This document shows positions 25,339-51,537 of a stretch of 51,674 bases of DNA, one piece after another. The notes under the pieces are model-generated. The model did not search any database, was not told the DNA's origin, and saw only the letters and a list, made by a program, of their open reading frames with translations. The position numbers were made by a program, and so were the translations under genes. Source of the stretch: Bacillota bacterium (GTDB lineage Bacteria > Bacillota > Clostridia > Caldicoprobacterales > Xylanivirgaceae); assembly GCA_023621995.1 (NCBI GenBank), contig JAMOAB010000021.1:1-51674 (forward strand), read 5' to 3'. How positions within the stretch are numbered: the stretch's first letter is position 1; each line of letters opens with the position of its first letter.

Positions 25339-26233
25339 TCCGGTGCTCAGGTCAGAGCTTAAGGTCAAGATGAGGAGTTTTAAGACAATACTTGGCATAA
25401 TAATATATGTAGGGATCCTTCTGTTCGTATCATCTATGTACTATTCAATAGTGACAGAGCAGAGAGCTTATATGGGGGCGACATCCATAAATGCCAATCA
25501 GATGATAGGGATGACCCTATATACTCTAATTGCCATATTGCAGTTTGTACTTATAATGGTGATAACACCTGCCCAGACGTCAGGCACCATAAGTGGAGAG
25601 CGTGAGAGGCAGACATTGGACCTACTTCTATGTACCAAGATGTCGGCATCAGAGATAATAATAGGAAAGCTACTATCATCTCTAGCATTCATACTTCTTC
25701 TTATAATATCGTCTCTACCCTTGTTTAGCTTGGTATTTTTATTCGGTGGTATAACACCTGGTGATATAGCTGTACTATTTCTCTTCTATATAGTTATAGC
25801 CATGGTTGTGGGAAGTATAAGTATTTTTTATTCCACAATATTTAAGAAGACTATGGTGGCCACTGTAGTATCGTATGTCACCATATTTGCATGGTATGTA
25901 CTGACATTTTTAATAGCAGTATATCTGATATCTAAACATGAAATGGGGGTTAATGCTAGTCAGACATATATACCAAGTATATTATATTTTAATCCCCTAT
26001 TTGGCCTTGGCGATATAATGTCTCGTCAGCTGGGAGGTAGTGCAAGAAATGCATTTGGAGGCATATTTGGACTTACAATTGGCACACCTTCACAGGGAGG
26101 TAGTATAAATTTGGATCCATGGATTGTAAACACCATACTCATGTGTGTTATAACAGCTATTATGCTCATCATAAGCTCAATTAGAATAAAGCCTGTGAGA
26201 ACGTGGAAATGGAATATAGGAAAAGATAGGTGA
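25319..26233 (+). CDS. ABC-2 type permease
   Basis: A 304-residue integral membrane protein with about six helices, starting NPVLRSELKVKMRSFKTILG, the usual amphipathic entry of ABC-2 permeases. It includes the diagnostic cytoplasmic stretch TSGTISGERERQTLDLLLCT followed by KMSASEIIIGKL, which contacts the ATPase. The start is ATG 25319 with GGAGG six bases upstream; ATG 25325 is possible. It overlaps the ATPase gene by 20 bases and the next gene's ribosome binding site lies within its end. It forms the transmembrane half of the exporter encoded in this operon. Confidence 0.9.
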   Translation: MAMKLNNPVLRSELKVKMRSFKTILGIIIYVGILLFVSSMYYSIVTEQRAYMGATSINANQMIGMTLYTLIAILQFVLIMVITPAQTSGTISGERERQTLDLLLCTKMSASEIIIGKLLSSLAFILLLIISSLPLFSLVFLFGGITPGDIAVLFLFYIVIAMVVGSISIFYSTIFKKTMVATVVSYVTIFAWYVLTFLIAVYLISKHEMGVNASQTYIPSILYFNPLFGLGDIMSRQLGGSARNAFGGIFGLTIGTPSQGGSINLDPWIVNTILMCVITAIMLIISSIRIKPVRTWKWNIGKDR

Positions 26234-26238
26234 TATAT

Positions 26239-27846
26239 ATGGATAGGAGCTATGAGGAAGGATGGAAACTTAAAAAGGCCCTAGCCCCATTTAAGCGAAG
26301 GGCAACAGCAGTGAATATATTCAAATATTTGTCCTTTGGTATAACGGGCATACTTTCTTTTATAGTTATATGTATGCTAGTGTCATTTGCAGTGCCATTT
26401 GTTCATATGAGGGAATATATAATAGGTGGTAGCGCCATTATACTCGTCTTATCTTTAATAGTGTCACTATTTATGAAACCTAAGTGGCAAGATATAGCCA
26501 AGCTCTTAGATAGATACGGACTAGGCGAGAGAGTTATAACTGCCCTTGAGCTTTTGGATAGGGATGATGTATATGCAAAGCTTCAGCGTAGCGATACGCT
26601 ATCCTATATAGATGGAGTTTCGCCTAAGATAATAAGAGCCAACATACCTAAGAGGCAGGTGTATGTCACCATAGTCCTCTGTATAGGTATATTGCTCCTT
26701 GCTCTTTTGCCAAATCCTAAGTGGGATATTGTAAAGCGACAGCGAGATATGGAAGAGTCCATAAAAGAGATGGCTAAAGAGTTGGAGAAAAAGGGAGAGG
26801 AAGGCCTCAAGAAGGCTGATGAACTCACAGAGGAGGAGAAGAAGGAGCTTAAAAGACTTCTATCTTCACTTTCAAAGGAATTAGAGAAAAGCAGGACATA
26901 TAAGGATGGGATTGCTAAAATTTCAAATGCCCAAGAGGAGATAGATAAGCTACTGGTAGATGAGCAGAAGAAGAAACTAAGTTTATTGAGTCAAGCTTTA
27001 AAGGACCAAGATATGACTACTTCCCTAGGGGAGGCAATGGAACGAGAAGATGTGGACAGTGTGAAAGATGAGATACAAAAGTTAGAGGAGCAGTTACAAG
27101 ACGAATCTATGCAGAAAAAACTTATGGACGCACTGGCTACTGCTTTTAGAGAGACGGCAGCAAAGCTTCCCGATGGTGTCTTTAAAGAACAATTAATGGC
27201 GCAGGCTGATGCAATATCTGGTAATATGGAAGGGGCCATAGAAGGCCTAAATATGATATGCGGAGAGGTGGCCAAGGGTATGGAGGGAAGCCCTGCCAGT
27301 GACCCTGGTGATATAAAATATCTACTTCAAGATATGAAGAATAGTATGTTAGATGGGGCAGACGCCCTAGCCCACCTAGAAGGTGCTAACTTTGCCCAGG
27401 GACAAACTTCCCAAGGAGGAGAAGGGGCCCCTATCGGACAAAGAGGCGGTGGAGCAGGAACAGATACTGGAGGCACAGGACAAAATGGTACTACTGGCCA
27501 GGGCGGTGCAGGCCAGGGAAGCATTGGTCAAGGCGGTACTGGTCAAGGTGGTGCAGGCCAGGGAAGTGGAATAGGACAGAATGGGCATAGTAATCAAGTA
27601 GGAGAGCCGAATCGTTTAGGTGATGGTAGTGGTGAGATAGGGCATGTAAAGGGTACACCCTCTAATAGCGGTAGGATAGATACCATAGAGATAGAGGGTG
27701 GTATAGGTGGAATGGCAGGGCCCGTTCCATACGATAGAGTCATAGGCACTTATAAGAAACAGGCCATGGAGGCCTTAGACAGAAAGACATTACCGAAAGG
27801 ACTAGAGGATATAGTTAAGGATTACTTTAATGGGTTGGAGGATTGA
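26239..27846 (+). CDS. Membrane-anchored coiled-coil protein with Gly/Gln repeat region
   Basis: A 535-residue protein, DUF4175-like in layout. Two N-terminal membrane helices (FGITGILSFIVICMLVSFAV and AIILVLSLIVSLF) are followed by a conserved segment (WQDIAKLLDRYGLGERVITA) and a third helix (VYVTIVLCIGILLLALL). A long charged coiled coil (about residues 170-330) precedes a Gly/Gln/Thr-rich repetitive stretch (about 385-455), and then comes a conserved C-terminus (GPVPYDRVIGTYKKQAMEAL). Such proteins accompany MoxR-DUF58-VWA genes in Clostridia. A scaffold or substrate role for the MoxR AAA+ ATPase is an inference. ATG 26239 has AGGTG six bases upstream; the GTG at 26230 is less likely. Confidence 0.75.
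   Translation: MDRSYEEGWKLKKALAPFKRRATAVNIFKYLSFGITGILSFIVICMLVSFAVPFVHMREYIIGGSAIILVLSLIVSLFMKPKWQDIAKLLDRYGLGERVITALELLDRDDVYAKLQRSDTLSYIDGVSPKIIRANIPKRQVYVTIVLCIGILLLALLPNPKWDIVKRQRDMEESIKEMAKELEKKGEEGLKKADELTEEEKKELKRLLSSLSKELEKSRTYKDGIAKISNAQEEIDKLLVDEQKKKLSLLSQALKDQDMTTSLGEAMEREDVDSVKDEIQKLEEQLQDESMQKKLMDALATAFRETAAKLPDGVFKEQLMAQADAISGNMEGAIEGLNMICGEVAKGMEGSPASDPGDIKYLLQDMKNSMLDGADALAHLEGANFAQGQTSQGGEGAPIGQRGGGAGTDTGGTGQNGTTGQGGAGQGSIGQGGTGQGGAGQGSGIGQNGHSNQVGEPNRLGDGSGEIGHVKGTPSNSGRIDTIEIEGGIGGMAGPVPYDRVIGTYKKQAMEALDRKTLPKGLEDIVKDYFNGLED
27400..27590. repeat. Imperfect tandem repeat encoding GQGG/AGQG units
   Basis: The DNA contains repeated blocks such as GGTGCAGGCCAGGGAAG and GGTCAAGGCGG, encoding Gly-Gln-Gly-Gly and Ala-Gly-Gln-Gly-Ser units in the coiled-coil membrane protein. 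The repeats are locally more GC-rich than the surrounding DNA. Confidence 0.75.
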
Positions 27847-36331: not shown

Positions 36332-36352
36332 GAACTTATGGAACAGAATAAA

Positions 36353-36500
36353 ACCTCGGTAGGTGAGGCTACTGCAAGGATATGGATTGCTGCCGTGAAG
36401 AGGTGGAAACACCTCAAACTGGTCAGAAGGTTCTGCCGACAAGGCTTAACCTAATGCAATTTTGATGCCTTGCAGAGCCAAAGCTTGGACGGAAAGGATA
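36353..36500 (+). promoter_or_regulatory. M-box (ykoK) magnesium riboswitch aptamer
   Basis: Conserved M-box segments occur in order: GGTAGGTGAGGCTACTGC (matching GUUAGGUGAGGCUCCU), the core TTGCTGCCGTGAAGAGG, CTGGTCAGAAGG, CCTAATGCAA, and CAGAGCCAAAGCTTGG (matching AGUGCUAAAGC). M-box RNAs fold on several Mg2+ ions and switch off Mg2+ transporter genes when Mg2+ is plentiful. The Mg2+ P-type ATPase gene lies downstream, as expected. The 3' segment GCCAAAGCTTG (36477-36487) is perfectly complementary to CAAGCTTTGGC (36524-36534), which is the loop and descending arm of the following terminator. This gives a clear antiterminator/terminator switch. Confidence 0.93.
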
Positions 36501-36507
36501 CGAATAT

Positions 36508-36656: not shown

Positions 36657-36837
36657 GATAGTCCATTGGCATAACTGATCTATGTTTCATTTCTATAAAT
36701 CTGCTGTCTTCTAAATGTAAGCATTTCTTTTACTGTTGTGGTTGTTAAACTCTATTTTTGGAAAGATATATTTAAGAGTTGGGATGAGACTATACAGATC
36801 ATCCTAGGTCAGTTATTGCTATTTGGAGGTGTTAAAA

Positions 36838-39495
36838 ATGAGAAGAGGAGTAAAAAACAGGATAGAGATAGATAGGGCAAAATCATTAAAGATAACCGAA
36901 AATCTATTTAAGATATCAGAGCAAAATATTGGGGATGTATTTCGAGATTTAAACACATCTGAAAAGGGAATTAGTAGCGAAGATGCAGAGGGCAGGCTTG
37001 AGTATTATGGTATAAATGAGGTGGCAACTGAAAAGCCAGATCCTTGGTATATTCAACTTGCCAAGGCATTTATAGATCCATTTATCCTAGTACTTTTAGC
37101 TATAGCTATTATTTCCCTTATAACCGATGTGGCACTTGTTGCACCAGAAGATAGGAGTTTTGAGACTGTAATCGTAATTACCATTATGGTAACTATTAGT
37201 GTATTCCTACGTTTCTTTCAGGAATATAGATCCAATAGGGCAGCAGATCAATTAAAAGAATTAGTCCACACGACTGCTGCTGTAGTAAGGAGTGATATGG
37301 GCAAGCGGGAGATAGATATGGATATAATAGTGCCTGGTGACATTGTGCACATTGCAGCAGGAGATATGATACCAGCAGATATGAGGATTATATCGGCAAA
37401 GGATTTATTTATAAGTGAATCGTCACTTACAGGCGAATCTATTCCTGTAGAAAAGCATGCTACAACAATGGATTGGACTGAAAGAGACAGAAATATAGCG
37501 GATATTGAAAATATCTGTTTTTTAGGCACGAATGTAATAAGTGGTTCAGCTATAGGCGTAGTCATCGGTACAGGTGACAATACTTATCTAGGCTCCATGG
37601 CAAAGTCTCTTGTGGGACAGCGTGCCCAAACCAGCTTTGATGAGGGTGTAAATAGTGTAAGTTGGCTTCTGATTAAATTTATGATGGTAATGGTGCCCAT
37701 AGTATTTCTCATAAATGGTATTACTAAAGGAGATTGGCTACAGGCTCTTTTATTTGCCATATCTATTGCTGTAGGTCTGACTCCTGAAATGCTTCCTATG
37801 ATAGTTACTAGTAATCTTGCCAAGGGTGCCATGACAATGGCAAAGAAAAAGACTGTCGTAAAACAGTTGAGTGCTATTCAAAACTTTGGTGCCATGGATA
37901 TACTATGTACAGATAAGACGGGAACCCTTACCATGGACAAGATTGTACTCGAGAGATATTTGGATGTACATGGAAATGAAGATGAGAGGATACTTAGGCA
38001 CGCTTATCTCAATAGCTACTTTCAAACAGGGCTTAAGAACCTCATGGACTTGGCGGTAATAGAATATGGAGATGAAAAGGGCTTAGATTATCTGAAAGAT
38101 GCCTACATTAAAGTTGATGAAATTCCCTTTGATTTCGAAAGGCGTAGGATGTCGGTTATACTAGAAGATAAAAATAAAAAAAGGCAGCTAGTTACAAAGG
38201 GAGCGGTAGAGGAGATGCTATCTATCTGTAGCTATGCCGAATATGAAGGGGAAGTCATCACTTTAACAGATGATATTAGAGAAAAGATAATGGAGACCAC
38301 ACAAGAACTCAATCTAGACGGAATGAGAGTTCTCGCTGTAGCCCAGAAAAATGAAATCCCCTACGATAGGGAGTTTAGTGTAGAAGATGAGAGGGATATG
38401 GTACTCATAGGCTATATAGGTTTTCTAGATCCTCCAAAGGATTCAGCTATCCACGCCATACAGGCCCTTAACGAACATGGAGTAGAGGTAAAGGTATTGA
38501 CGGGTGATAATGAGTTTGTTACACAGAAAATATGCAAGGAGGTTGGGCTACCCTTTGAGCACATTGTATTAGGACATGAAGTAGATGATATGACCGACGA
38601 AGAACTTGCATATGAGGCAGAAAACACCACCATATTTGCCAAACTATCTCCTCTGCAGAAAGCTAGAGTAATAAATGTGCTTCAAGATAGGGGGCATACA
38701 GTAGGATATCTCGGTGATGGTATAAATGATGCTGCAGCCCTTAGAGAATCGGATATTGGCATATCGGTAGATAATGCGGTAGATATTGCCAAAGAGTCTG
38801 CAGATATAATTTTATTAGAGAAGAGCCTTATGGTATTAGAAGAAGGGGTTGTAGAAGGACGCAAGATATTCGGAAATATAATAAAGTATATAAAGATGAC
38901 AGTGAGCTCTAACTTTGGTAATGTATTTAGCGTGCTGGTGGCGAGTGCATTTTTACCGTTTTTGCCCATGTTACCTATTCACTTGCTTATACAAAATTTA
39001 TTATATGATATATCTCAGATAGCTATTCCTTGGGACACTATGGATGAAGAATATCTGAGGAAGCCAAGGCAGTGGGATGCCAGTAGTATAGGGCAATTTA
39101 TGGTATATATAGGTCCAATAAGTTCAATATTTGATATTGTGACCTATCTTGTAATGTGGTTTGTATTCAAGGCAAATGCACCAGAAGTTCAAGGACTCTT
39201 TCATTCTGGTTGGTTTATAATTGGGCTTCTTACACAGACTTTGGTTGTCCATATGCTAAGGACCGAGAAGATACCCTTTATTCAGAGCAGAGCAACACTA
39301 CCTGTAATGATTATGACAGTAGTTATAATGGCAATAGGTATCTATATCCCATTTTCTCCATTGGGTGCCTCTATAGGATTTGAACCACTACCATCGTCAT
39401 ACTTTCCATGGATGATTGGTATTGTAGTTTCATATTGCGTAGTTACCCAATTTGTAAAGATGTGGTATATCAAAAAGTTTGACGAGTGGTTATAG
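36838..39495 (+). CDS. mgtA: Magnesium-importing P-type ATPase (P3B, MgtA type)
   Basis: An 885-residue membrane pump that imports Mg2+ under limitation. Landmarks are the N-terminal cation ATPase domain (GISSEDAEGRLEYYGINEV), the actuator SSLTGESIPVEK, the TM4 motif VGLTPEMLPMIV typical of MgtA/MgtB, the phosphorylation site LCTDKTGTLTMD (Asp about 359), KGAVEEM, KVLTGDN, the hinge YLGDGINDAAALRESDIGIS, and TM6 LIQNLLYDISQIAIPWD, which is the MgtA-specific ion-site sequence. ATG 36838 is chosen because TTGGAGGTG lies eight bases upstream; an upstream TTG is unsupported. The M-box riboswitch, the small ORF and a downstream terminator define its transcription unit. It is intact and of family length. 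Confidence 0.96.
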   Translation: MRRGVKNRIEIDRAKSLKITENLFKISEQNIGDVFRDLNTSEKGISSEDAEGRLEYYGINEVATEKPDPWYIQLAKAFIDPFILVLLAIAIISLITDVALVAPEDRSFETVIVITIMVTISVFLRFFQEYRSNRAADQLKELVHTTAAVVRSDMGKREIDMDIIVPGDIVHIAAGDMIPADMRIISAKDLFISESSLTGESIPVEKHATTMDWTERDRNIADIENICFLGTNVISGSAIGVVIGTGDNTYLGSMAKSLVGQRAQTSFDEGVNSVSWLLIKFMMVMVPIVFLINGITKGDWLQALLFAISIAVGLTPEMLPMIVTSNLAKGAMTMAKKKTVVKQLSAIQNFGAMDILCTDKTGTLTMDKIVLERYLDVHGNEDERILRHAYLNSYFQTGLKNLMDLAVIEYGDEKGLDYLKDAYIKVDEIPFDFERRRMSVILEDKNKKRQLVTKGAVEEMLSICSYAEYEGEVITLTDDIREKIMETTQELNLDGMRVLAVAQKNEIPYDREFSVEDERDMVLIGYIGFLDPPKDSAIHAIQALNEHGVEVKVLTGDNEFVTQKICKEVGLPFEHIVLGHEVDDMTDEELAYEAENTTIFAKLSPLQKARVINVLQDRGHTVGYLGDGINDAAALRESDIGISVDNAVDIAKESADIILLEKSLMVLEEGVVEGRKIFGNIIKYIKMTVSSNFGNVFSVLVASAFLPFLPMLPIHLLIQNLLYDISQIAIPWDTMDEEYLRKPRQWDASSIGQFMVYIGPISSIFDIVTYLVMWFVFKANAPEVQGLFHSGWFIIGLLTQTLVVHMLRTEKIPFIQSRATLPVMIMTVVIMAIGIYIPFSPLGASIGFEPLPSSYFPWMIGIVVSYCVVTQFVKMWYIKKFDEWL

Positions 39496-39652: not shown

Positions 39653-39690
39653 ATAATGTATTGTTTGTCTGCATACATTATGTTAAAATA
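39653..39690 (+). promoter_or_regulatory. Probable cas-operon promoter with operator-like inverted repeat
   Basis: TTGTTT (39661-39666) and TAAAAT (39685-39690) are 18 bases apart, a plausible sigma-A promoter for the WYL regulator and cas genes. A perfect dyad ATAATGTA / TACATTAT (39653-39660, 39674-39681) embraces the -35 box, as expected for autoregulation by the adjacent WYL protein. Confidence 0.5.
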
Positions 39691-39706
39691 TACCCAAGGT
39701 GATGAT

Positions 39707-40690
39707 ATGGGTAAATTTTCAAATATGTTAAAAATTCTATCACTATTGCAGACTGAAGATATCCTCACTACTAACGAAATAGCAAATTACTTGAATATCA
39801 GCCAGAGAAACGTCAAAGCATATATACAGACACTTAAGGAAGCTAACATACCTATTAGAGGTATTAGCGGTCGATCGGGAGGTGTATATCTCTCTGAGGA
39901 TTATTATCTGTATCCTCCTAGGCTAGATAAAAAAGAGTATGAAGCCCTATTGTTGGCAGAAGATATTTTGACAAAGGAGAATGGCTTTGTATATGAAGGT
40001 GAATATAAGACAGCCCTATCCAAGATTAAATGGGCCATGGGTATGACGGCACCGCGTATTGGCTATTTGGGTTCAGATGCTAATATATATAGCCAGGGTC
40101 CATTTGATATTTGTGATGACTCCATGGTAAAGAATAGATTATTATATACAAGGCAGGCAATTAAAAATAGGAATAGATTGCGACTACTCTATTATACTCC
40201 TAATAAAAAAGAGCTCAAATGGCGAGATATAGATCCATATGGCATAATCAATCGCAATTTTTCATGGTATCTAGTAGGTTACTGCCATCTAAGATCTGAC
40301 ATTCGCGTCTTCAAAGTGATTAGAATTAAAGAATTACATGTCTTAGAAGATACATTTGAATATCCAGAAGATTTTTCAACAGAAAAATACATGGAAAACA
40401 TATTAGATATGATACAGGGTGCTGAATATAATGTAAAAATCAAATTTTTTCACCCAGCTTCTACGTGGGTGGAAGAGCGCATGTGGCTACCATCTCAAAA
40501 GATTACTAGAATGGAAGACGATTCTATAATATTCGAAGGAAAAGTAAAGGGTTTGACAGATATAAAAAGATGGGTGATGGGATACGGAAGATTGGCTAGG
40601 GTCATTGAGCCTAAGAAGCTCAAAGATGCCATCTTTGAGGAGGCGTCATATCTATTACAACAGTATGAGGAGAATGATGAATGCGAATAA
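39707..40690 (+). CDS. HTH/WYL-domain transcriptional regulator of the CRISPR locus
   Basis: A 327-residue regulator. The N-terminus holds a winged helix-turn-helix of the DeoR/HTH_11 type (MLKILSLLQTEDILTTNEIA then NYLNISQRNVKAYIQTLKEA). The middle and C-terminal part is a WYL domain (NRLRLLYYTPNKKELKWRDI with DPYGIINRNFSWYLVGYCHL; the WYL triad is present as WYL) followed by a WCX-like extension (HPASTWVEERMWLPSQKITR). WYL domains bind nucleic acid or nucleotide ligands, and such regulators often control CRISPR or other defence genes. ATG 39707 follows AAGGTGATG; upstream in-frame ATGs lack a ribosome binding site. It overlaps cas6 by 10 bases, so it is part of the cas operon. Confidence 0.9.
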   Translation: MGKFSNMLKILSLLQTEDILTTNEIANYLNISQRNVKAYIQTLKEANIPIRGISGRSGGVYLSEDYYLYPPRLDKKEYEALLLAEDILTKENGFVYEGEYKTALSKIKWAMGMTAPRIGYLGSDANIYSQGPFDICDDSMVKNRLLYTRQAIKNRNRLRLLYYTPNKKELKWRDIDPYGIINRNFSWYLVGYCHLRSDIRVFKVIRIKELHVLEDTFEYPEDFSTEKYMENILDMIQGAEYNVKIKFFHPASTWVEERMWLPSQKITRMEDDSIIFEGKVKGLTDIKRWVMGYGRLARVIEPKKLKDAIFEEASYLLQQYEENDECE

Positions 40691-41442
40691 TGATAAAGTT
40701 AAATTCACCGATCCCACAGCTATTGGAATACAACTACAATCACTATTTGAATGGTTTTCTATACAATATGATTGGAAAATCCAATGTTGAAATTTCCACT
40801 AAATTACATAATGAAGGTTATCAGGCTAAGGGGAAACCAATAAAGCCTTTGGTGTTTTCTAGACTATATTTTGACAATAGAAAGGCTACAAAGAGAGGTT
40901 TAATAGTAGAGGGAGAGGGAAGATGGTTTGTATCATCCCTTTATGAAGAGTTACTTTTGGCTTTCGTAAGTAGTACTGCACAGCAGTATAAAATGACTGT
41001 AGGTGATGTATCATTTTTAATTGAAGAAGTACAGATTATGCGAAAACCTAAATTCACTGAAGATATGGACTTTACCATGTTATCTCCCACCGTTGCTCCT
41101 AAGAGAATACCTGAGCAAAATAATAGACTGAAATTTTGTCATCCCATGGAAAATGAATTCTATGATATATTGAGGGACAATATCCTGCGAAAATATAGCC
41201 TTATATATGGAGTTCATTACAGTGGAGATAGGTCAATAAACTTTTCTGTCACATATCCAGAAGAGATGGATATGGAAAAGGCTGCATGCCTAATCAGATA
41301 TAGGGGACAGAATATAAAGTGCTATATGTTTCCAATAACCCTAACGGGGGATCCAAAGCTCATTGAATTATGTTATGAGCTGGGGCTTGGAAGTTACAAT
41401 ATTCAAGGTTTTGGAATGTTAGAGCATGTTGAAAGGGGGTGA
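40681..41442 (+). CDS. cas6: Cas6 crRNA-processing endoribonuclease
   Basis: A 253-residue RAMP-fold RNase that cuts the repeat RNA to make crRNAs with an 8-nt 5' handle (here predicted AUUGAAAU). The N-terminal LPQLLEYNYNHYLNGFLYNM-like segment (IPQLLEYNYNHYLNGFLYNM) is the first ferredoxin fold with the usual His region. KFTEDMDFTMLSPTVAPKRI is the middle motif ('LSP', common to Cas6). The C-terminus ends with the glycine-rich loop GLGSYNIQGFGMLE (about residues 233-247), the RNA-contacting G-loop. Cas6 active-site residues vary; His44 or nearby Lys/Tyr are possible. It starts inside the WYL gene's end. Confidence 0.95.
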   Translation: MRIMIKLNSPIPQLLEYNYNHYLNGFLYNMIGKSNVEISTKLHNEGYQAKGKPIKPLVFSRLYFDNRKATKRGLIVEGEGRWFVSSLYEELLLAFVSSTAQQYKMTVGDVSFLIEEVQIMRKPKFTEDMDFTMLSPTVAPKRIPEQNNRLKFCHPMENEFYDILRDNILRKYSLIYGVHYSGDRSINFSVTYPEEMDMEKAACLIRYRGQNIKCYMFPITLTGDPKLIELCYELGLGSYNIQGFGMLEHVERG

Positions 41443-41446
41443 GAGT

Positions 41447-43090
41447 ATGGAACTGTTGATAGAATTAACTGGCGATCCATGGTACGATAGGGGTGCTATA
41501 AACCTATATAGTAAACTGAGGGGTAGACCTGTGTTTGACAGTTCACGCTCGTATATCTTAGACAATGAGGTGTACATTGCTTTTAATGGGACTAAAGAAG
41601 AGATAGCTGACACCATCTATGGGATTCTAAAACAGAGTATAAATGATATGGCGCTATTACCTCCGGAACTAAAAATGATAGAACATACAGTTAAATATGA
41701 TGACGATGGTTTTGTTGCCTTTAAGACGGAAGTAGATATGGAGCCACATATGGAAAAGCTCAAGGAAAGGCTTTCTAATGTACCAAAGAAATCACAATAT
41801 AGTCTACTTCGCAATTATGTAGGTATAAGGCAGGATATACTGCGGTTGCGGAATAATCATGTTAAAGATGTGGACAAATTCGTAGCTTGTATTTCGGAGG
41901 ACTTTACATCGAATAAATTGTGTCCCGTATGTAATAGGCAATATAATACAAAGACTAAAGATAGTATGACACAAAATAAAAATCCTTTCTATAATCAACA
42001 CCATAATGTGCCAATACGAGGAGCATTAGGCAGTCTTGCCACAGGAGAGATGTGTGCTGTATGTAACTTGGTAAATATATTTGCTGCACTGGATCCAAAT
42101 ACACCTTATTTTATAGATAACAGATATACCAATATATTTTTACCAATTCTGCCTAGTTTCAATCTAATAGAGAAGACGAGACAAAATTTAAATACTGGGA
42201 ATAATTTGGAAGATATGCGAGCTCTACCTAAGTTGTCGTATGGTACCAATGTCGTAAGTTTAAAGCATAGAGATGTATATAATACACTTATTGCACTATA
42301 TTATAGTATGCTATATAAATATTCTCCTGAAAAGGAAGAATATATCTATTTTCCCGTTATAAACGAACTAGAACAGCGGGAGATCAGCGACTGGGTTGTG
42401 TGTCGCTATAGGAAGGGAAGAAACGTAATATTTGGACCTTTTTCGCATATAAATGTACACTCTAATATATTCAAATTAGTAGAGGAGTTACCGCTAGACG
42501 ACAATTCCATTGATACAGGGAATATATTCATAGATTTTCTAAACCAGATATACTCTGATGATTCCAATATAGTAGAAGGATTAGCAAAAGGCGTAGTGTA
42601 TAGTGATATTTACATTATTGCAAGGAATATATTTATGCTCTATAAAGAAGGTTGTAGTCGGGATAATATTACATATAGGGCTTTAAGATTTTTCTCTGTA
42701 TTTATGGAAAAATTTATGGAGGTGAATGATTTGTTAGACGCTACTTTATCAGAAGATTTGAAGGTATTTGGTAGGATGGTGGGCCAGTATTTCCCCACTG
42801 ATATTGCAACAATGACTGAGATTTCCAACGTCACAAATACAATGCAGTTTAAGAAGGCAATAAGTAATATACTCTTTAAGATGTTTAAATTATCGGCTTC
42901 AGAGGGTAATGTGCTAGATGAACAATGGATAATTGGAGAGAATAGGGTGACTAATATTTTAAATCAGGTCAACTCACAAAATCTGTCAGAGGCAAAGGAT
43001 GTATTGCTTATATATGCCTGCCTGTCTGCCATGAGAGAGAGCAAGGTTAAGCGAAGTGCTACTAAAAAAGAGGAGGTTTCAGTTAAATGA
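41447..43090 (+). CDS. cas8b1: Cas8b1/Cst1, large subunit of the type I-B Cascade
   Basis: A 547-residue protein of the CXXC-CXXC large-subunit family (Cst1/Cas8b1, Tneap variant). The two defining zinc-finger-like pairs are present: NKLCPVCNRQ and GEMCAVCNLV, about 42 residues apart. The N-terminus opens with LLIELTGDPWYDRGAINLYS. Cas8 recognises the PAM and joins Cas5/Cas7/crRNA. The C-terminal helical part (about 430-547) may serve as the small subunit. ATG 41447 is used since GGGGGTGA precedes it. It overlaps cas7 by four bases, indicating translational coupling. Confidence 0.93.
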   Translation: MELLIELTGDPWYDRGAINLYSKLRGRPVFDSSRSYILDNEVYIAFNGTKEEIADTIYGILKQSINDMALLPPELKMIEHTVKYDDDGFVAFKTEVDMEPHMEKLKERLSNVPKKSQYSLLRNYVGIRQDILRLRNNHVKDVDKFVACISEDFTSNKLCPVCNRQYNTKTKDSMTQNKNPFYNQHHNVPIRGALGSLATGEMCAVCNLVNIFAALDPNTPYFIDNRYTNIFLPILPSFNLIEKTRQNLNTGNNLEDMRALPKLSYGTNVVSLKHRDVYNTLIALYYSMLYKYSPEKEEYIYFPVINELEQREISDWVVCRYRKGRNVIFGPFSHINVHSNIFKLVEELPLDDNSIDTGNIFIDFLNQIYSDDSNIVEGLAKGVVYSDIYIIARNIFMLYKEGCSRDNITYRALRFFSVFMEKFMEVNDLLDATLSEDLKVFGRMVGQYFPTDIATMTEISNVTNTMQFKKAISNILFKMFKLSASEGNVLDEQWIIGENRVTNILNQVNSQNLSEAKDVLLIYACLSAMRESKVKRSATKKEEVSVK

Positions 43091-44004
43091 ATATAAAATG
43101 TATAACTATTACATGGCTTGCTAAGGCCGATCTATCGAGTTTAAACTCTGGCCAAGGAAGTGGTAATATAAATGAATTAAAACTATACTCCTACGGTACT
43201 AAGCCGTATGTTTCAGGGCAATCATTGAGGACGGCCCTGTTTCAGACAATGGATAGGATGAATGAAGGCGTAATAAAATGTATATCCGAGGCCCCATGTG
43301 GTGATGTAGAAAATTGTTGGGCTTGTGATCTAAGGGGATATTTAAAGCCTGAGGAGGGAACAGGTGGGACTCGCAGATGGTCACCTTTGAAGGTGAGCCC
43401 AGCATTGGGACAACTTCCAACAGAGATAGTATCAGACCTATTGACTCGCCACAGTTATATAGATAAGGGAGAGGACAAAAAATCTAAGGATCAGAGAATT
43501 GCTCATGTCCAGTTGACAGAGAACGTATACAGGGCAGGAATAGTTATAGATGTTGCAAATATAGGCAGGGTTATAGAACCTATAATAGGTTCAGGGAAAA
43601 AGAAAAATAGTATGGAAGGTTGGAAAGAGGTTATAGACATAGGCGATGAGGAGAGGCGTGTTAGGACTATAGCGGTGCTAGATAGTATATTTAACTTGAG
43701 CGGTTTTGCTAAGCAGGCACGGGCAGCTACATCTTTGGCACCCCAGTTAGTATTTGCCTCTATAAAAGATACATATAACCAAAGGGGTCTCAATGTACTT
43801 GAGATGGATGATGATGGCAATGTGAAGCTTGATGTATTAGAATCAGCACTCTATGAATCTAAGGCATTAGGAGATGAAGTGTTTATAGGCTTTACACCAG
43901 GAATAATAGAAAACGAAGAGGCATTCAAAGAAGTTGTAGAAAAAAACGGTAAAGAGGTATTACCAGTGGTAGAGGTATTCAATAGACTCAAGGCACAGTT
44001 ATAA
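43087..44004 (+). CDS. cas7: Cas7 (Cst2/DevR family), backbone of the type I-B Cascade
   Basis: A 305-residue RAMP protein that polymerises along the crRNA. The DevR/Cst2 features are visible: ITITWLAKADLSSLNSGQGS, then YSYGTKPYVSGQSLRTALFQ, and a cysteine-rich insertion (CISEAPCGDVENCWACDLRG, about residues 59-78) that may bind zinc. The C-terminal half, with AVLDSIFNLSGFAKQARAAT, is the conserved core helix. ATGA overlap with cas8b1 gives coupled translation. Stoichiometry of about six or more copies per complex is known for the family, not seen here. Confidence 0.95.
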   Translation: MNIKCITITWLAKADLSSLNSGQGSGNINELKLYSYGTKPYVSGQSLRTALFQTMDRMNEGVIKCISEAPCGDVENCWACDLRGYLKPEEGTGGTRRWSPLKVSPALGQLPTEIVSDLLTRHSYIDKGEDKKSKDQRIAHVQLTENVYRAGIVIDVANIGRVIEPIIGSGKKKNSMEGWKEVIDIGDEERRVRTIAVLDSIFNLSGFAKQARAATSLAPQLVFASIKDTYNQRGLNVLEMDDDGNVKLDVLESALYESKALGDEVFIGFTPGIIENEEAFKEVVEKNGKEVLPVVEVFNRLKAQL

Positions 44005-44017
44005 GGGGTGTATATAT

Positions 44018-44677
44018 ATGGATAAAGTTTTGTCAGCACTCTTGACAGTACCCTATTGGTGTTCATTTAGAAAATCTCATACAATCAATGTCCATATGAC
44101 ATATCCAGTGCCTCCAATTACTACTATATATGGACTTATAGCAAATGCTCTGGGTTTAGAACAAGATGATTATAGCCTCATGGACGACATGCGTATAGGG
44201 GTATCTGTAGAGAGGTGGGGAGAAGAAGTGGATAGCTACTCTAATATTTTAAAATCCACCAGATCGGGTCCTACATATTACTATTCCACTAGCGTAATGA
44301 GACAGAAGATAATAAAACCCCAATTTTATATGTATGTTCTCGCAAAAAAAGATCTTATTGAGAGAATTGAGGATGCACTTAAAGATCCAGATAGGCTCTT
44401 ATATCTAGGAGAATCTGATGATTTAGTTGAAATATCTCAAATAGAGGTACATGATGTGCAAGTGGTTATGACTAAATGCGTTGATTCTATAATTGCAAAG
44501 CCAAAAGACTTAATGCCAGTAACGCCAGGAACAAAAATTATAAGCATGCCAAAAGCATTTGCCTATGAGACGAGGAGTCCTAATGTAATAAACGAAGTGT
44601 TTTATGTAAATAAGCGTGTTGAGTTTGAAGAGAATGTTGAGGGACTTAAAGTGGGAGATAGGGTGATTGCGTTATGA
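44018..44677 (+). CDS. cas5: Cas5 (Cas5t/Cas5b type)
   Basis: A 219-residue RAMP protein that caps the crRNA 5' handle in type I Cascade. The N-terminus VLSALLTVPYWCSFRKSHTI then NVHMTYPVPPITTIYGLIAN is the typical Cas5 beginning, with 'PPITTIYGLI' as its hallmark. The glycine-rich C-terminus is short, as in Cas5t. It lies 13 bases after cas7 with GGGGTGT upstream, and overlaps cas3 by four bases. Confidence 0.94.
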   Translation: MDKVLSALLTVPYWCSFRKSHTINVHMTYPVPPITTIYGLIANALGLEQDDYSLMDDMRIGVSVERWGEEVDSYSNILKSTRSGPTYYYSTSVMRQKIIKPQFYMYVLAKKDLIERIEDALKDPDRLLYLGESDDLVEISQIEVHDVQVVMTKCVDSIIAKPKDLMPVTPGTKIISMPKAFAYETRSPNVINEVFYVNKRVEFEENVEGLKVGDRVIAL

Positions 44678-47250
44678 TATTGGGTAAGGAGAATCAGACA
44701 CTAAGGGGACATCTGCTTGATACAGCAGATGTCCTAAAACTATATATTCAATACAATGATGCCCAACTGAGAAGAAATAGCGAGAAGTTTTCCTATGACT
44801 ATGAGGAGTTCAAACAATTGTTGCTGGCAGGTGCCTATTTTCACGACCTTGGAAAGAGTTTTTGTAGATGGCAAGATGCCCTAAGACAAGGGAAAAAGCT
44901 ACCTGGTCATTCTTTCATTTCGTTTGCACTCATAGATAGAATGCTCTTTGGGGAGCTACCAAATACAAAATATGACGACTCAAAATGGGCATGTATGAGA
45001 CGCAGCCTTGCACTTGCAGTGTTGGGACATCATGGAATGTTATATGACAATGCATTTACATCGGATAATACATTGAACTTAGGAAAAATAGAGATGGATA
45101 TAGACCTTATAAACAATTTTATAGATGAGTGCATAGAAAGGGATGACTTGAGTCTAGTGGGTATACGGAAATTATCCAATCCAGTAATAGATGTCCCTTT
45201 CACAGTAAAGGCCAACTATGAGCGCTATTATAGAAAATTAACTCATATGAGACGTAAGAGGGAAGAGGATGGATTTATGGATAAAGTTCTCTATACCCAG
45301 TTCTTATCCATATTATGTCTATGTGATAATTTATCTAGTATGCTTGCCGAAAAGCTCATTCCTGAAGGCCAAATATGGGAAAATGTGATGATCAAGGAGA
45401 ACTTTGTTGCGGTAGAAGATCTTCTCATTGATAAGTATATATTTGATCCTTCAAAAATACTTAAGGAAGGATATTCGATAGTAGATGCACCTAATAAATT
45501 TCAAGAGAATATGCTTAAAGCTAAAAGTGACAATGTAATTTTAAATGCAGGTTGTGGTGAAGGAAAGACAGCGGCCGCCCTCTTGTTTGCTAAAAAATTA
45601 ATAGATGAGGGAAGGGCATCTAAAATCATTTTTACTTTGCCAACACAATTTACTTCAAACAACATGTATATTGACTTTAAAAAGAATTATAACATAGATC
45701 CAAATTATCTCGGAATATATCATGGAGAGGTGGAGAGTTTTTTAAAGAAACAGTATGAAGAAGAGAAAGAGGTTCAAGCCCACAAGTACCAGGATACTTT
45801 CTATAATAAACCTGTAACCATATCAACAGTAGACCATCTTCTCTATAGTATGGTTCATAGTTATAAGTATGCAGATAGGGCTTTCGGCAATATTTTAAAC
45901 TCTGTGGTCGTATTTGATGAAATCCATTACTATGAAAGGGATACAATAGGGCTCATAGGGGAAGCGCTGAGATTTTTGAGGTTTTTTAAAATTCCCCATG
46001 TCATAATGACTGCAACTATGCCAGCGAGTATGAGGGATTCGCTATTGCGGATAGCAGAGCAGGATGGATATGCAGATAGTTATGATTGGATAAGGGGAGA
46101 GAGTAAGGTCCCAGAGAGTAGTCAGATAAAAAAACCTTTTTATGTAGAAAAGATGGAAGCACCTATATTCAATGAAGATAATAAAATAAACAAAGAATTT
46201 GTGGAGCTTTGTAAAAGATATGGAGATGTAAGACAGATGATAGTAGTAAATCAAGTAGAAAAGGCAAAAGAGGTATATTTTGCATTAAAAGAAGAGACTA
46301 ATGTCATCTGCTACCACTCGGAGTTTACACGGATTCATAGAGATGAGAAGGAAGAGATAATACGAATTTTATTTAAACCAGCGAATAAAAGGTCAAAAAA
46401 AGAAAAAGAAACTCTTGAAAAGAGAGGATTTCAAAATACAGACAATTGTATCTTAATATGTACGCAGATCTGTGAACTCAGCCTAGATATTAGTGCAGAT
46501 GTGATGATGACTGAAGTTGCACCTGTGGACTCTATTGGGCAAAGGGGAGGCAGACTTCATCGGAATGGATATAGTCCTGAACACATCAAATGCCAATGTA
46601 GGTTATGTCAAACAAGGAACTATAGAGAAAATTTTCAATTTAAATTATATGTATTTCCCATATGTAAGGAGAGAAAAAATGATGGTCTGCCCTATGTAGA
46701 CTTTAAGGACATAGCAGATGATGAAAATATACTGCAAAAGAGTTATGATATATTGTCAAAGGAATACGATTATACAAAGCTTGTAGATATGGTTGATAAA
46801 ATATATGACGATATATCCACTGGAGATCTACAAGATGGCAAATTCTATGAATATTTTCATGAAGATATTATATTTGGCAAGAAACCCATAGAGAGATACG
46901 GAGATTACGAAACACAAAATAATGCAGGGGTATTTCAAGTACGTAAGCAGCAATATGCAACCTATACTGTCATACCATACAAATATCATAAAAAATTTTT
47001 GTCTGTGGAAGATTATTACGAGGCACTAGAACTTATAAAGAATTATTCGGTTAAGATAAATGAATTTAAATTTATACCAGCATGCTCAAATGGGAAAATA
47101 CGTCTTTACCCTTATAGCTTTAGAAAGAAACAGAAATTTACGGAACATGAATTTATAGAAGATATAGAGATATTTGTATTGCATATGGACTATGATTTTG
47201 AATCAGGCATTGACTTTAAGCGCGATGTAGTGTTTAACAATATATCATAA
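44674..47250 (+). CDS. cas3: Cas3 helicase-nuclease with N-terminal HD domain
   Basis: An 858-residue effector that unwinds and degrades DNA marked by Cascade. The HD nuclease domain shows RGHLLDTADV, YFHDLGKSFCRW (His57-Asp58) and AVLGHHGML (His119-120). The helicase domain shows Walker A LNAGCGEGKTAAALLFA (about residue 293), DEIH box VVFDEIHYYE (about 415), SAT-like motif VIMTATMPASM, and motif VI SIGQRGGRLHRNG, with ELSLDISADV before it. A Cys cluster (CQCRLCQTR) follows motif VI. All catalytic residues look intact, so interference should be functional. Confidence 0.96.
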   Translation: MILGKENQTLRGHLLDTADVLKLYIQYNDAQLRRNSEKFSYDYEEFKQLLLAGAYFHDLGKSFCRWQDALRQGKKLPGHSFISFALIDRMLFGELPNTKYDDSKWACMRRSLALAVLGHHGMLYDNAFTSDNTLNLGKIEMDIDLINNFIDECIERDDLSLVGIRKLSNPVIDVPFTVKANYERYYRKLTHMRRKREEDGFMDKVLYTQFLSILCLCDNLSSMLAEKLIPEGQIWENVMIKENFVAVEDLLIDKYIFDPSKILKEGYSIVDAPNKFQENMLKAKSDNVILNAGCGEGKTAAALLFAKKLIDEGRASKIIFTLPTQFTSNNMYIDFKKNYNIDPNYLGIYHGEVESFLKKQYEEEKEVQAHKYQDTFYNKPVTISTVDHLLYSMVHSYKYADRAFGNILNSVVVFDEIHYYERDTIGLIGEALRFLRFFKIPHVIMTATMPASMRDSLLRIAEQDGYADSYDWIRGESKVPESSQIKKPFYVEKMEAPIFNEDNKINKEFVELCKRYGDVRQMIVVNQVEKAKEVYFALKEETNVICYHSEFTRIHRDEKEEIIRILFKPANKRSKKEKETLEKRGFQNTDNCILICTQICELSLDISADVMMTEVAPVDSIGQRGGRLHRNGYSPEHIKCQCRLCQTRNYRENFQFKLYVFPICKERKNDGLPYVDFKDIADDENILQKSYDILSKEYDYTKLVDMVDKIYDDISTGDLQDGKFYEYFHEDIIFGKKPIERYGDYETQNNAGVFQVRKQQYATYTVIPYKYHKKFLSVEDYYEALELIKNYSVKINEFKFIPACSNGKIRLYPYSFRKKQKFTEHEFIEDIEIFVLHMDYDFESGIDFKRDVVFNNIS

Positions 47251-47276: not shown

Positions 47277-47777
47277 ATGAATATAGATCAGATCGGCGGT
47301 GTGCACATATATTACTATGTCAGCTGTAAAAGGCAATTGTGGCTATATGCCCACTATATAAATATGGAGCAGGAAAGTGATAGGGTGAAGTATGGTAGTT
47401 TGATTCATGATGGGACATATGAAAGGATGAAGAAGGAAATAGCATTTGATTCAATCAAGATAGATTTTATAGATAACAAAGGCTATATTCACGAGACAAA
47501 ATCTAGTAGATATATGAAAACTGAACATGAATGGCAACTATATTACTATATGTACTATTTAAAGAATATAAAACACATGGATATAAAAGGTGGGATTATA
47601 CACTATCCAGAGATTAACAAGACAAAGGAATTATATCTCGATAGTGAAAAAGAAAAGGAAGTAAAAGAGATGGTAATAGATATCCAAAGAATTTGTTCAT
47701 CACCTACTATTCCTTCACATAATGAGAATATAAAGCTGTGTAAGAAATGTAGCTATTATGAACTTTGCTATATATAA
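47277..47777 (+). CDS. cas4: Cas4 exonuclease (RecB-like, Fe-S) for spacer adaptation
   Basis: A 166-residue Cas4. Four cysteines positioned for an iron-sulphur cluster are present: Cys17 (YYYVSCKRQLWLY), Cys155, Cys158 and Cys164 (LCKKCSYYELCYI). RecB nuclease motifs are His in YGSLIHDGTYERM, Asp in KIDFID, ExK in HETKSS and QLYYYMYYL (the Q-Y motif). In type I systems Cas4 trims prespacers in a PAM-dependent way and sets orientation, working with Cas1-Cas2. ATG 47277 has AAGGTGG upstream. Confidence 0.94.
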   Translation: MNIDQIGGVHIYYYVSCKRQLWLYAHYINMEQESDRVKYGSLIHDGTYERMKKEIAFDSIKIDFIDNKGYIHETKSSRYMKTEHEWQLYYYMYYLKNIKHMDIKGGIIHYPEINKTKELYLDSEKEKEVKEMVIDIQRICSSPTIPSHNENIKLCKKCSYYELCYI

Positions 47778-47799: not shown

Positions 47800-48807
47800 A
47801 TGGTCAAACAAAACTTTTATTTAATTACTGATGGTGAATTGAGAAGAAAAGATAATACTCTTTATTTCGAGAATTCTGAGGGAAAGCGGATATTACCAAT
47901 TGAAAATATAGATAGTATATATGTTTTTAGCACTTTGAGATTGAATAATAGGGCGCTAGAGTTCGCCTCTTATAATGAAGTGCCAATACATTTTTTTAAT
48001 TATTACGGAACATATGTAGGTAGTTATTATCCTAAGGAGCGACTAGTTTCAGGATACCTCTTATTGAAGCAAGTTGAGCACTATACGGATATGGATAAGA
48101 GAATTGATATTGCACGGGAATTTGTCGATGGCGCCATAAGTAATATTCAAAAGAATCTTTATACATTGCAGACAAAAATAGATAACAATAAGATACTAGA
48201 GATAAGAGAACAGATACAGGTAGGACAAAACCTATTAAAGGATATGACTACAATAGAGGAATTAATGGGACTTGAAGGAAGTATAAGAAAAAAATATTAT
48301 GAGGCAATTGACATCTATATGTTACATACAAATGGAGAATATGTAATGGATGGAAGAGTTAAACGCCCTCCTAATAATAAGATGAATTCTCTCATATCTT
48401 ATGGAAATTCTATGATGTACGCTACGGTATTGAATGAAATTTATAAGACACAGTTAAATCCTACTATTAGTTATTTGCATGAACTACAAGATAGAAGGTT
48501 TTCGTTGAGCCTAGATGTAAGTGAAATATTTAAGCCATTTATCATAGATAGAATTATATTTAGACTTATCGGTCTAAATATGCTCGATAATAGCTGTTTT
48601 GAGGAATTGGAGGGAATTTGCTATTTAAGCAATAAAGGGAAACGGAAATTTATTCAGGAATATGATGATAGGCTAAAAACTACCATAAGGCATAGGCAGC
48701 TTAATAGGAAAGTTTCATATCAGAGACTGATTAGGTTGGAACTCTACAAACTTGTAAAACACTTAATAGGGGAAACAAAATATAGAAGTTTTAAGATATG
48801 GTGGTGA
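47800..48807 (+). CDS. cas1: Cas1 integrase
   Basis: A 335-residue Cas1 of type I-B length. The metal-binding catalytic residues can be placed: Glu159 (ELMGLEGSIRKKYY), His227 (PTISYLHELQDRR) and Asp239 or Glu242 (SLSLDVSEIFKPF). The N-terminal beta domain (YLITDGELRRKDNTLYFEN) is intact. With Cas2 it forms the complex that inserts spacers at the leader end. ATG 47800 follows GGGAGGAAG. Confidence 0.96.
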   Translation: MVKQNFYLITDGELRRKDNTLYFENSEGKRILPIENIDSIYVFSTLRLNNRALEFASYNEVPIHFFNYYGTYVGSYYPKERLVSGYLLLKQVEHYTDMDKRIDIAREFVDGAISNIQKNLYTLQTKIDNNKILEIREQIQVGQNLLKDMTTIEELMGLEGSIRKKYYEAIDIYMLHTNGEYVMDGRVKRPPNNKMNSLISYGNSMMYATVLNEIYKTQLNPTISYLHELQDRRFSLSLDVSEIFKPFIIDRIIFRLIGLNMLDNSCFEELEGICYLSNKGKRKFIQEYDDRLKTTIRHRQLNRKVSYQRLIRLELYKLVKHLIGETKYRSFKIWW

Positions 48808-48811
48808 TATT

Positions 48812-49075
48812 TTGTTTGTAATAGGGGTATACGATATAGGAGAAAAACGTGTAGCCAAAGTAAAAAAACTTTTTGATCAATTTTTATTTTGGACTCAAAA
48901 TTCGGTCTTTGAGGGTGAATTGTCAAAGGCACAGCTAGCAGAGTTTAAGATGCGATTGGAAAAAATAATTGACAAGCGCTATGACAGTGTTATATTCTAT
49001 ATAGCAGGAAACAAAAAGTGGGTTACTCGAGATGTAGTAGGAGTAGATAGAGGAAACATAGGAAATATACTATAA
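48812..49075 (+). CDS. cas2: Cas2
   Basis: An 87-residue ferredoxin-fold protein with the conserved VIGVYDIGEKRVAKVKKL opening (Asp8) and the FWTQNSVFEGELSKAQLAEF motif. It dimerises and bridges two Cas1 dimers during spacer acquisition. The start is TTG 48812, with GGTGGTGA ending seven bases upstream and four bases after the cas1 stop. It is the last cas gene. Confidence 0.95.
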   Translation: MFVIGVYDIGEKRVAKVKKLFDQFLFWTQNSVFEGELSKAQLAEFKMRLEKIIDKRYDSVIFYIAGNKKWVTRDVVGVDRGNIGNIL

Positions 49076-49078
49076 AGT

Positions 49079-49107
49079 AAAAACTCCGTGAACCTATGGG
49101 GGTTTTT
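49079..49107 (+). terminator. Probable terminator of the cas operon
   Basis: AAAAACTCC (49079-49087) pairs with GGGGTTTTT (49099-49107), one G-U pair; the T-run forms part of the stem. An overlapping 13-bp dyad CCGTGAACCTATG / CATAGGTTTACGG (49086-49098, 49115-49127) offers an alternative fold. Confidence 0.5.
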
Positions 49108-49224
49108 GCACTAACATAGGTTTACGGACATTTTAGTATTTTGGAATAGCTCTAATGAGCTATATATTAAGGTTTGATTGAAGGAAATGAACTATACAAG
49201 GTCCAAGTAGGCGCCTTTTCTAAA
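49108..49224 (+). promoter_or_regulatory. CRISPR leader
   Basis: About 117 AT-rich bases between the cas operon end and the first repeat. It contains a short perfect hairpin ATAGCTC-TAAT-GAGCTAT (49146-49163) and the right half of a 13-bp dyad. Orientation is set by the repeat end GAATTGAAAT (the 8-nt crRNA handle), so new spacers should enter at 49225. Confidence 0.7.
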
Positions 49225-51537
49225 GTATAATTGCATCTATAGTAGAATTGAAATGTACAGACTTTTTAGTGCCATTTCCATATATGCCATGTATAATTGC
49301 ATCTATAGTAGAATTGAAATTCAGCTATTAAAACCAAATAAGAAATAGCTGAACATCGTATAATTGCATCTATAGTAGAATTGAAATTTATATTTAAAGT
49401 TTATATATAAAAGTCTCTATATAGTATAATTGCATCTATAGTAGAATTGAAATAAGGTAAAGGCGAGCGCAATGAGTACCAACTCATACGTATAATTGCA
49501 TCTATAGTAGAATTGAAATGAAGATATATGACCCAGTAATGGCAAGAGTAGACATAGAGTATAATTGCATCTATAGTAGAATTGAAATCATTCACAGAAG
49601 ATACAACAGACTTTGAACTATAAGGTATAATTGCATCTATAGTAGAATTGAAATGTAGATCCTGTAGCTAGATGTAGTTTATCTGGTGTCCTCGTATAAT
49701 TGCATCTATAGTAGAATTGAAATTTGAACGAATGGATAGACTAAGCGAAAGAGTGGATATAGTATAATTGCATCTATAGTAGAATTGAAATTGATGAAAA
49801 TTATCAATGGAAGGTAGCAGAAGCAAGTATAATTGCATCTATAGTAGAATTGAAATTGTTCTAGGCTCTTTTGTATGTCTTGAACAGTCGAATAGTATAA
49901 TTGCATCTATAGTAGAATTGAAATGCTTCTAATCCGTCTGGCCTTGACCTGTTTCTGTGGAGTATAATTGCATCTATAGTAGAATTGAAATCTACCCGAC
50001 AGCCGAACAGAAGAAGAAAAGCAAATGGGTATAATTGCATCTATAGTAGAATTGAAATTTAAGCAATGAGGTAGTTATGACAGTTGAAATGGACGGTATA
50101 ATTGCATCTATAGTAGAATTGAAATATAATATAATTACAACAACGGAGACGTTGCAAAACGTATAATTGCATCTATAGTAGAATTGAAATAGGGCACAAA
50201 GGCAATTAATGAAAGAAGGACAAAGTGTATAATTGCATCTATAGTAGAATTGAAATTTCTTCCTCCAATGCCTCCTTCTATACTCTCTTACCTGTATAAT
50301 TGCATCTATAGTAGAATTGAAATATATTGCGAGCATCATACGGAGATGGAACATCAAGGGTATAATTGCATCTATAGTAGAATTGAAATAATTATGGGAG
50401 CACTGAGAGATAACATGGGTGAAGTGGTATAATTGCATCTATAGTAGAATTGAAATGACTCAAGTATAAGAAAATTCCATAGTGGTTTACCTGGCGAGTA
50501 TAATTGCATCTATAGTAGAATTGAAATTGATAAAATAAGACAGCTCGAAAATGAGTTGAAAAAGTGTATAATTGCATCTATAGTAGAATTGAAATTTCTC
50601 TGCCCGCTGTTCCAATTTTGAACTCTAAATCAAGTATAATTGCATCTATAGTAGAATTGAAATTTGATACAGCTGCATGAAAATGACTTACAGGAGGAAG
50701 GTATAATTGCATCTATAGTAGAATTGAAATTTGATACAGCTGCATGAAAATGACTTACAGGAGGAGTATAATTGCATCTATAGTAGAATTGAAATTTATG
50801 TAATGAAAAGGGATATTGTTGGGCTACTAATAAGTATAATTGCATCTATAGTAGAATTGAAATGTTAAAGAAAGATGATAAGAAAAAAGGAGAGGGCAAG
50901 TAGGTATAATTGCATCTATAGTAGAATTGAAATGTCCTCAATCCTCCACTAGACCAGTTAGGGCAATCTAGTATAATTGCATCTATAGTAGAATTGAAAT
51001 ATTAGCAAGTAGGTGGTGATAGTGAGAAAACTAACGGGTATAATTGCATCTATAGTAGAATTGAAATTCATAATAAGCACCAAACTCATCAACATTTATA
51101 TAGGGTATAATTGCATCTATAGTAGAATTGAAATATAGCAATAAACGTTGAAGCTGATGGAGTGGAGGGAGTATAATTGCATCTATAGTAGAATTGAAAT
51201 GAGGGCTCATACTAAAACAATCACTATTCCTATTATAGTATAATTGCATCTATAGTAGAATTGAAATATGGTCAATGTCGCATCTACTTGGGCTCTCTTC
51301 TTCGCCGTATAATTGCATCTATAGTAGAATTGAAATGTAAAAGCCAATAGGCAATATAAAATTTCAGAAGATGTATAATTGCATCTATAGTAGAATTGAA
51401 ATCGATCATGAATATTATATTATAGCAAATGACACAGAAACGTATAATTGCATCTATAGTAGAATTGAAATAAACACTATATAAATAATCGGAATCAAGC
51501 AAGCCAAGTATAATTGCATCTATAGTAGAATTGAAAT
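49225..51537 (+). CRISPR. Type I-B CRISPR array, 35 repeats and 34 spacers
   Basis: The 30-bp repeat starts GTATAATTGC and ends GTAGAATTGAAAT. I located 35 copies from 49225-49254 to 51508-51537, all apparently identical, including the last one. Spacers are 35-41 bp (mostly 36-38). The leader lies on the left next to cas2, and the array is transcribed on the plus strand. Spacers 22 (50664-50700) and 23 (50731-50765) are the same sequence, differing only by two bases at the 3' end. The uniform repeats and the intact cas1-cas2-cas4 genes imply a recently active locus. Confidence 0.98.

Follow-up and report, generated by a model that had tools for sequence, protein, structure and literature searches.

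Spacers 22 and 23 of a predicted type I-B CRISPR array lie side by side, share one end and differ in length, and the type I-B adaptation machinery very probably captured them from one protospacer in two separate events. The array occupies positions 49225–51537 of the window, by which we mean the whole 51,674-nt stretch of DNA that was analyzed, and consists of 35 identical repeats and 34 spacers of 35–41 nt on the forward strand, as are all array and cas features given below. Spacer 22 (50664–50700; 37 nt) ends in GGAGGAAG, and spacer 23 (50731–50765; 35 nt) equals its first 35 nt; the two are identical from base 1 onward and differ solely in the trailing AG (50699–50700) at the 3′ end of spacer 22, which is followed by an intact repeat. 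Repeats 22 (50634–50663), 23 (50701–50730, separating the two spacers) and 24 (50766–50795) all match the consensus exactly. When the 34 window spacers were compared on both strands, this was the only pair sharing at least 11 nt, and the common 35-mer cannot be a product of chance. The initial annotation had described adjacent same-protospacer spacers of unequal length at 50664–50765, and its coordinates, the lengths of 37 and 35 nt and the trailing AG all proved exact.

A predicted type I-B locus and the orientation of its array

The array follows an operon in which Cas3, Cas5, Cas6, Cas7, Cas4, Cas1 and Cas2 of the type I-B kind are encoded together, indicating by its gene content a type I-B CRISPR-Cas system. 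It contains cas6 (Cas6b; 40681–41442; TIGR01877, E = 2.6e-33; PADLOC Cas6b, 8.9e-55), cas7 (Cst2/DevR, type I-B; 43087–44004; TIGR02585, 8e-26), cas5 (type I-B; 44018–44677), cas3 (helicase and HD nuclease; 44674–47250; TIGR01587, 2.5e-68; TIGR01596, 2.6e-20), cas4 (47277–47777), cas1 (type I-B; 47800–48807; TIGR03641, 7.6e-133) and cas2 (48812–49075). Cas5 and Cas4 fell below some NCBIfam cut-offs: Cas5 matched TIGR01895 (7.9e-15) under the curated cut-off and TIGR02593 over it, with support from PADLOC (Cas5, 9.6e-26), and Cas4, the single Cas4 match among the nine operon ORFs scanned, lay 0.4 bits under the cut-off of TIGR00372 (9.6e-18), with support from Pfam (PF01930, 3.6e-49) and PADLOC (Cas4b, 1.4e-52). 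For cas2, scanned as 48809–49075, matches to TIGR01573 (1.6e-10) and PADLOC Cas2b (9.3e-30) were obtained, and we provisionally read its start codon as the TTG at 48812. A 554-aa ORF (41426–43090), assigned to the cas8b place by position only, had no family match in NCBIfam, Pfam or PADLOC and may be a highly divergent Cas8b or a large subunit of another kind. Directly preceding cas6 is a WYL/WCX-domain transcriptional regulator (39656–40690), which possibly controls the cas operon.

The 30-nt repeat GTATAATTGCATCTATAGTAGAATTGAAAT, identical in all 35 copies of the window array, terminates in ATTGAAAT. Type I-B repeats end in ATTGAAA(N), the crRNA 5′ handle, and we take ATTGAAAT to be this usual handle; a 30-nt repeat with such an end and spacers of 35–41 nt are as expected of type I-B. 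The array starts 149 nt past the end of cas2, and the intervening region (49076–49224) is, by its position, the putative leader. In a second array of this genome, a single repeat is degenerate, with 2 mismatches, and it comes last in the same orientation, as expected for a trailer end. Given the proximity to cas2, the handle end and the degenerate last repeat, the common end of spacers 22 and 23 was taken as the 5′, PAM-side end; the same evidence led us to take the leader-proximal spacer 22 as the newer copy, spacer 23 as the older one and the extra AG as lying at the PAM-distal end. Upstream of the first repeats, the window (49076–49224) and the second-array locus (L029, 10710–10842) shared no match longer than 8 nt, despite their identical repeats.

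Several other features of the window were recorded. Spacer 2 (49321–49357) contains an inverted repeat, TCAGCTATT ... AATAGCTGA, such that its crRNA could self-fold. An M-box (magnesium) riboswitch (36348–36503) precedes a P-type cation ATPase (36823–39495). The large ORFs at 26230–27846 and 21863–24409 had no Pfam match at E 1e-5, and the former gave weak PADLOC matches to LmuB (E 6e-4) and JetC (E 9e-4).

Identical spacer pairs vary at the 3′ end

The initial annotation had recommended looking for further same-protospacer acquisitions, and such pairs were found both in this genome and in others. The second array, with an identical repeat, lies on another contig (C116, L029) of the draft assembly, which comprises 175 contigs, and contains 119 repeats and 118 spacers. 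Two of its pairs resemble spacers 22 and 23: B40/B71 (38 and 36 nt, extra TA, 31 spacers apart) and B89/B94 (37 and 36 nt, extra G, 5 spacers apart). Because these pairs are non-adjacent, duplication of a repeat-spacer unit provides no simple explanation for them. No equal-length duplicates were found in the window array or the second array; a third array of the genome, with a different repeat (L087, 52 spacers), held two adjacent equal-length duplicates. The genome (G000) carries two further cas1 genes, on contigs C173 (L087) and C109 (L088), the former in a locus with the 52-spacer array.

Three samples of arrays were compiled. For set 1, a Cas1 search of 393 genomes of the class yielded matches at E ≤ 1e-60 in 69 genomes, this one included, and loci were taken around 74 Cas1 places in other genomes and a further two in this genome, with the window and the second-array locus added. 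Arrays were parsed with a purpose-written script; three candidates with odd repeat lengths and three small unoriented arrays were excluded, and after doubly counted spacers had been dropped, 3662 spacers in 85 arrays from 59 genomes and 68 pairs remained. Set 2 was a replication, with the prediction recorded beforehand, in 398 genomes of the phylum, of which 126 (this genome included) had a Cas1 match; its 60 loci came from the first 80 listed Cas1 places minus 8 whose array side ran up against the end of a contig, the places omitting this genome and one used before, and provided 1617 spacers in 35 arrays from 27 genomes. Set 3 consisted of 13 arrays in 11 loci (862 spacers), admitted under a looser orientation rule from 18 arrays excluded from set 2; the other five stayed out.

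In set 1, all 52 same-strand pairs that were perfectly identical over their overlap began at the same base. Sixteen of these pairs, spacers 22 and 23 among them, differed in length, and all 16 shared the 5′ end only, none the 3′ end only; they came from 11 of the 59 genomes, this one included, and 12 of the 16 were non-adjacent. The same one-sidedness was observed in set 2, where 30 of 30 perfect pairs had a common 5′ end, as did all four different-length pairs, none of them adjacent, and in set 3, where the counts were 35 of 35 and 7 of 7, two of the latter being adjacent. Counted once per protospacer across the three samples, 25 of 25 different-length sets varied at the 3′ end (P = 6e-8 if both ends were equally likely to vary), and across these natural type I-B arrays the PAM-distal end of spacers from one site varied by 1–3 nt. 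Among near-identical pairs (at most 20% mismatches in set 1), the 5′ end was common in 13 of 16 in set 1 and in 3 of 5 in set 2. An assembly or base-calling artefact could be suspected in a draft of 175 contigs; the one-sided pattern also occurs in other assemblies, four of which are single-contig (G161, G025, G491 and G670), and we regard this explanation as very improbable. Assemblers tend to collapse near-identical units, not to create them.

We also considered whether the newer copy is always the longer one. This was true of the three pairs of this genome, but among the 15 same-array different-length pairs of set 1 the newer copy was longer in eight and shorter in seven, and the split in set 2 was two to two; the rule was therefore rejected.

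Two perfect pairs were found on opposite strands, namely spacers 69 and 75 of one array (L092; one end off by 1 nt) and spacers 80 and 88 of another (L205, in G758; equal lengths). Both fit the storage of one protospacer in both orientations, through flipped integration.

Spacers in copied blocks keep their length

The initial annotation had offered two readings of spacers 22 and 23, independent acquisitions at the same PAM with different trimming or a duplication followed by a 2-base slip at the spacer-repeat border, and had argued that a plain duplication preserves length. The latter expectation held in the arrays tested: in copied blocks of at least two spacers, the paired spacers were of equal length in 19 of 19 pairs in set 1 (6 blocks), 14 of 14 in set 2 and 16 of 16 in set 3, 14 of these last 16 coming from one array (L170) in which the same spacers were copied repeatedly. 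Of 18 pairs flagged as blocks in set 3, these 16 were true multi-spacer copies, and the remaining two were supplied by a tandem triple of one spacer (L215, spacers 107, 108 and 109; 37, 37 and 36 nt). Spacers 22 and 23, at 37 versus 35 nt, lack the equal length of a tandem repeat-spacer duplication, and their identical 5′ and differing 3′ ends have the form expected of re-acquisition with variable PAM-distal trimming.

A duplication would have to be followed by a second change, in that a unit duplicated through slippage or recombination between repeats would later have lost the AG from its leader-distal copy at the spacer-repeat border. Spacers 22 and 23 are adjacent, as unit duplication would leave them, and the tandem triple of 37, 37 and 36 nt would likewise result if a copy lost 1 nt later on. 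Moreover, adjacent equal-length duplicates outside blocks are common (8 in set 1, 4 in set 2 and 4 in set 3), and in the SpacerPlacer dataset duplications dominate repeated spacers, accounting for 695 of 805 candidates (PMC11472070). Against such a history stand the complete absence of length change in the copied-block pairs, the AG itself, for which a deletion has one placement only and no tandem copy, and both the non-adjacent pairs and the 3′-only variation, which duplication with deletion leaves unexplained. Of the two readings offered initially, independent acquisition is thus the better supported, by the non-adjacent pairs and the exclusive sharing of 5′ ends; duplication with a slip is the less supported and, for spacers 22 and 23, an unlikely though not negligible origin.

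For pairs outside blocks, the number of equal-length cases was compared with that expected from independent draws of length in each array. In set 1, the 21 non-adjacent pairs (9 equal, 12 different; 6.9 equal expected, P = 0.22) were near expectation and thus look like independent captures, whereas the 12 adjacent pairs (8 equal, 4 different; 3.7 equal expected, P = 0.01) showed an excess of equal lengths, which indicates that real duplications occur as well; the adjacent pairs of this set therefore look like a mixture of captures and true duplications. In set 2, equal lengths were in excess both among adjacent pairs (4 of 4 versus 1.1 expected, P = 0.005) and among non-adjacent ones (8 of 12 versus 3.2 expected, P = 0.003), and the latter excess argues against the simple reading, since some distant pairs are then probably copies. 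The 17 such pairs of set 3 comprised 4 equal and 1 different when adjacent and 7 equal and 5 different when non-adjacent.

Different-length pairs within single arrays of set 1 were clustered, with 8 of 15 lying within 5 positions of each other (P = 0.00014 versus random placement) and 4 of 15 adjacent (P = 0.0005). This clustering was not repeated in set 2, where none of the four different-length pairs lay within 5 positions; in set 3, four of seven lay within 2 positions, two of these in the one tandem triple.

The extra bases of spacer 22 match neither repeat nor leader

The AG of spacer 22 has a single possible placement, forms no tandem copy of its neighbors and is absent from spacer 23; the repeat starts with GT and the bases before the first repeat are CTAAA, neither of which matches it. 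Had an old spacer been re-captured from the array itself, with the new fragment running on into the repeat, the extra bases should equal the start of the repeat. They did so in 4 of the 25 protospacer sets, against 3.7 expected by chance, and the mismatch of AG with GT excludes this source for spacers 22 and 23 if spacer 23 is the older, so that re-capture from the array has hardly any claim to be the explanation. Similarly, an integration off by two at the leader-repeat junction could have added bases of the leader, and two of the 16 set 1 extras, a single G each, match the bases preceding the first repeat. The other 14 differ, as does AG from CTAAA, which excludes this source for spacers 22 and 23 unless the leader has changed since; an origin in the leader is accordingly about as implausible as one in the array. 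For this comparison the sequence upstream of the first repeat identified at each locus served as the leader, and in a truncated array this need not be the genuine one. No tandem copy accounted for 11 of the 16 set 1 extras. Since repeat, leader and tandem-copy sources do not match, the invader is the likely source of the extra bases.

The protospacer was not found in the searches made, and therefore no PAM was read. Exact 22-mers of the three pairs of this genome, and exact 20-mers for five set 1 pairs of other genomes, had no match in viral_contigs. Spacer 22 searched against phages returned three records only, with E values between 2 and 6 and alignments over no more than 59% of the spacer; for both own arrays, one phage search gave three weak records, involving two other spacers only, and another gave none. 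The best phage match of B20 (31/36) had CCT upstream and that of B82 (32/38) had TTT, two cases, both imperfect. In 391 genomes of the class, the 35-mer with up to 3 mismatches was found in this genome only. The exact repeat had no match in genome_contigs, a set from which this genome is possibly excluded, nor did the repeat with up to 3 mismatches in three other genomes of the family. A search for related loci with Cas1 returned one distant archaeal locus, which was set aside.

Discussion

The preferred reading, two separate captures of one protospacer, can be framed in terms of spacer processing. Cleavage at the PAM-side (5′) end would occur at a constant position, presumably through Cas4 acting with Cas1-Cas2, while the PAM-distal (3′) end would be set loosely, so that repeat captures of one site may differ by 0–3 nt; the older capture would have yielded the 35 nt of spacer 23 and the newer the 37 nt of spacer 22. 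The PAM, the part that Cas4 plays in this system and the copying of AG from the invader are all inferred. The one-sided pattern observed across the arrays is what a precise PAM cut combined with a loose distal end predicts.

Such processing has precedents. In the type I-F system of Pectobacterium atrosepticum, inaccurate PAM-distal cutting gives rise to spacers of variant length (PMC5059440). That system is alike in its canonical PAM end and variable PAM-distal end; it is unlike in that the spacers were new acquisitions in an experiment and 32 nt was the correct length, whereas here natural type I-B arrays contain repeat captures of one site over a wider range of 35–41 nt. Within type I-B, new spacers of Clostridioides difficile, made with Cas1, Cas2 and Cas4, measure 34–40 bp with a mean of 36–37, close to the 35–41 nt of the window array; there, 96% of expression-plasmid spacers had CCN PAMs, a feature of that system, and over-represented 'hot' protospacers were taken out before length analysis (PMC8406132). 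In type I-C, cutting by Cas4-Cas1-Cas2 is precise at the PAM and not strong at non-PAM sites; how the PAM-distal end is determined when a system has one Cas4 was left as a question (PMC6519985). In the open-licence literature, at the level of titles and abstract openings, no description of same-protospacer spacers of unequal length in natural arrays was found, the nearest being PMC5059440. The mechanism is already known and the biology ordinary; the pair of spacers 22 and 23 adds one more case and provides a practical signature of re-capture.

SpacerPlacer deals with the same class of object, a spacer occurring more than once, and assigns 15 of its 805 candidates to reacquisition (8) or independent insertion (7); it differs in that the classes are set by order and tree and spacers one edit apart are merged as mutated copies (PMC11472070). 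By this merging, a trailing difference of 1 nt is hidden, and re-capture events will go unseen in any method that treats spacers one edit apart as the same. Repeated spacers within a single genome are usually taken as duplications. Where the PAM-side end is fixed and the distal end variable, a second capture could be told from a copy without strain comparisons, and the result bears on the question raised in PMC6519985, namely what sets the PAM-distal end when there is one Cas4.

More tentatively, and as a suggestion we hold to be doubtful, the PAM-distal length in type I-B systems might tag each capture event, with captures of the same site clustering in the array. The clustering, if real, would point to repeat captures within a single episode. 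Consecutive spacers could then derive from one fragment pool, with one PAM and different trimming, and one infection could write its memory twice running.
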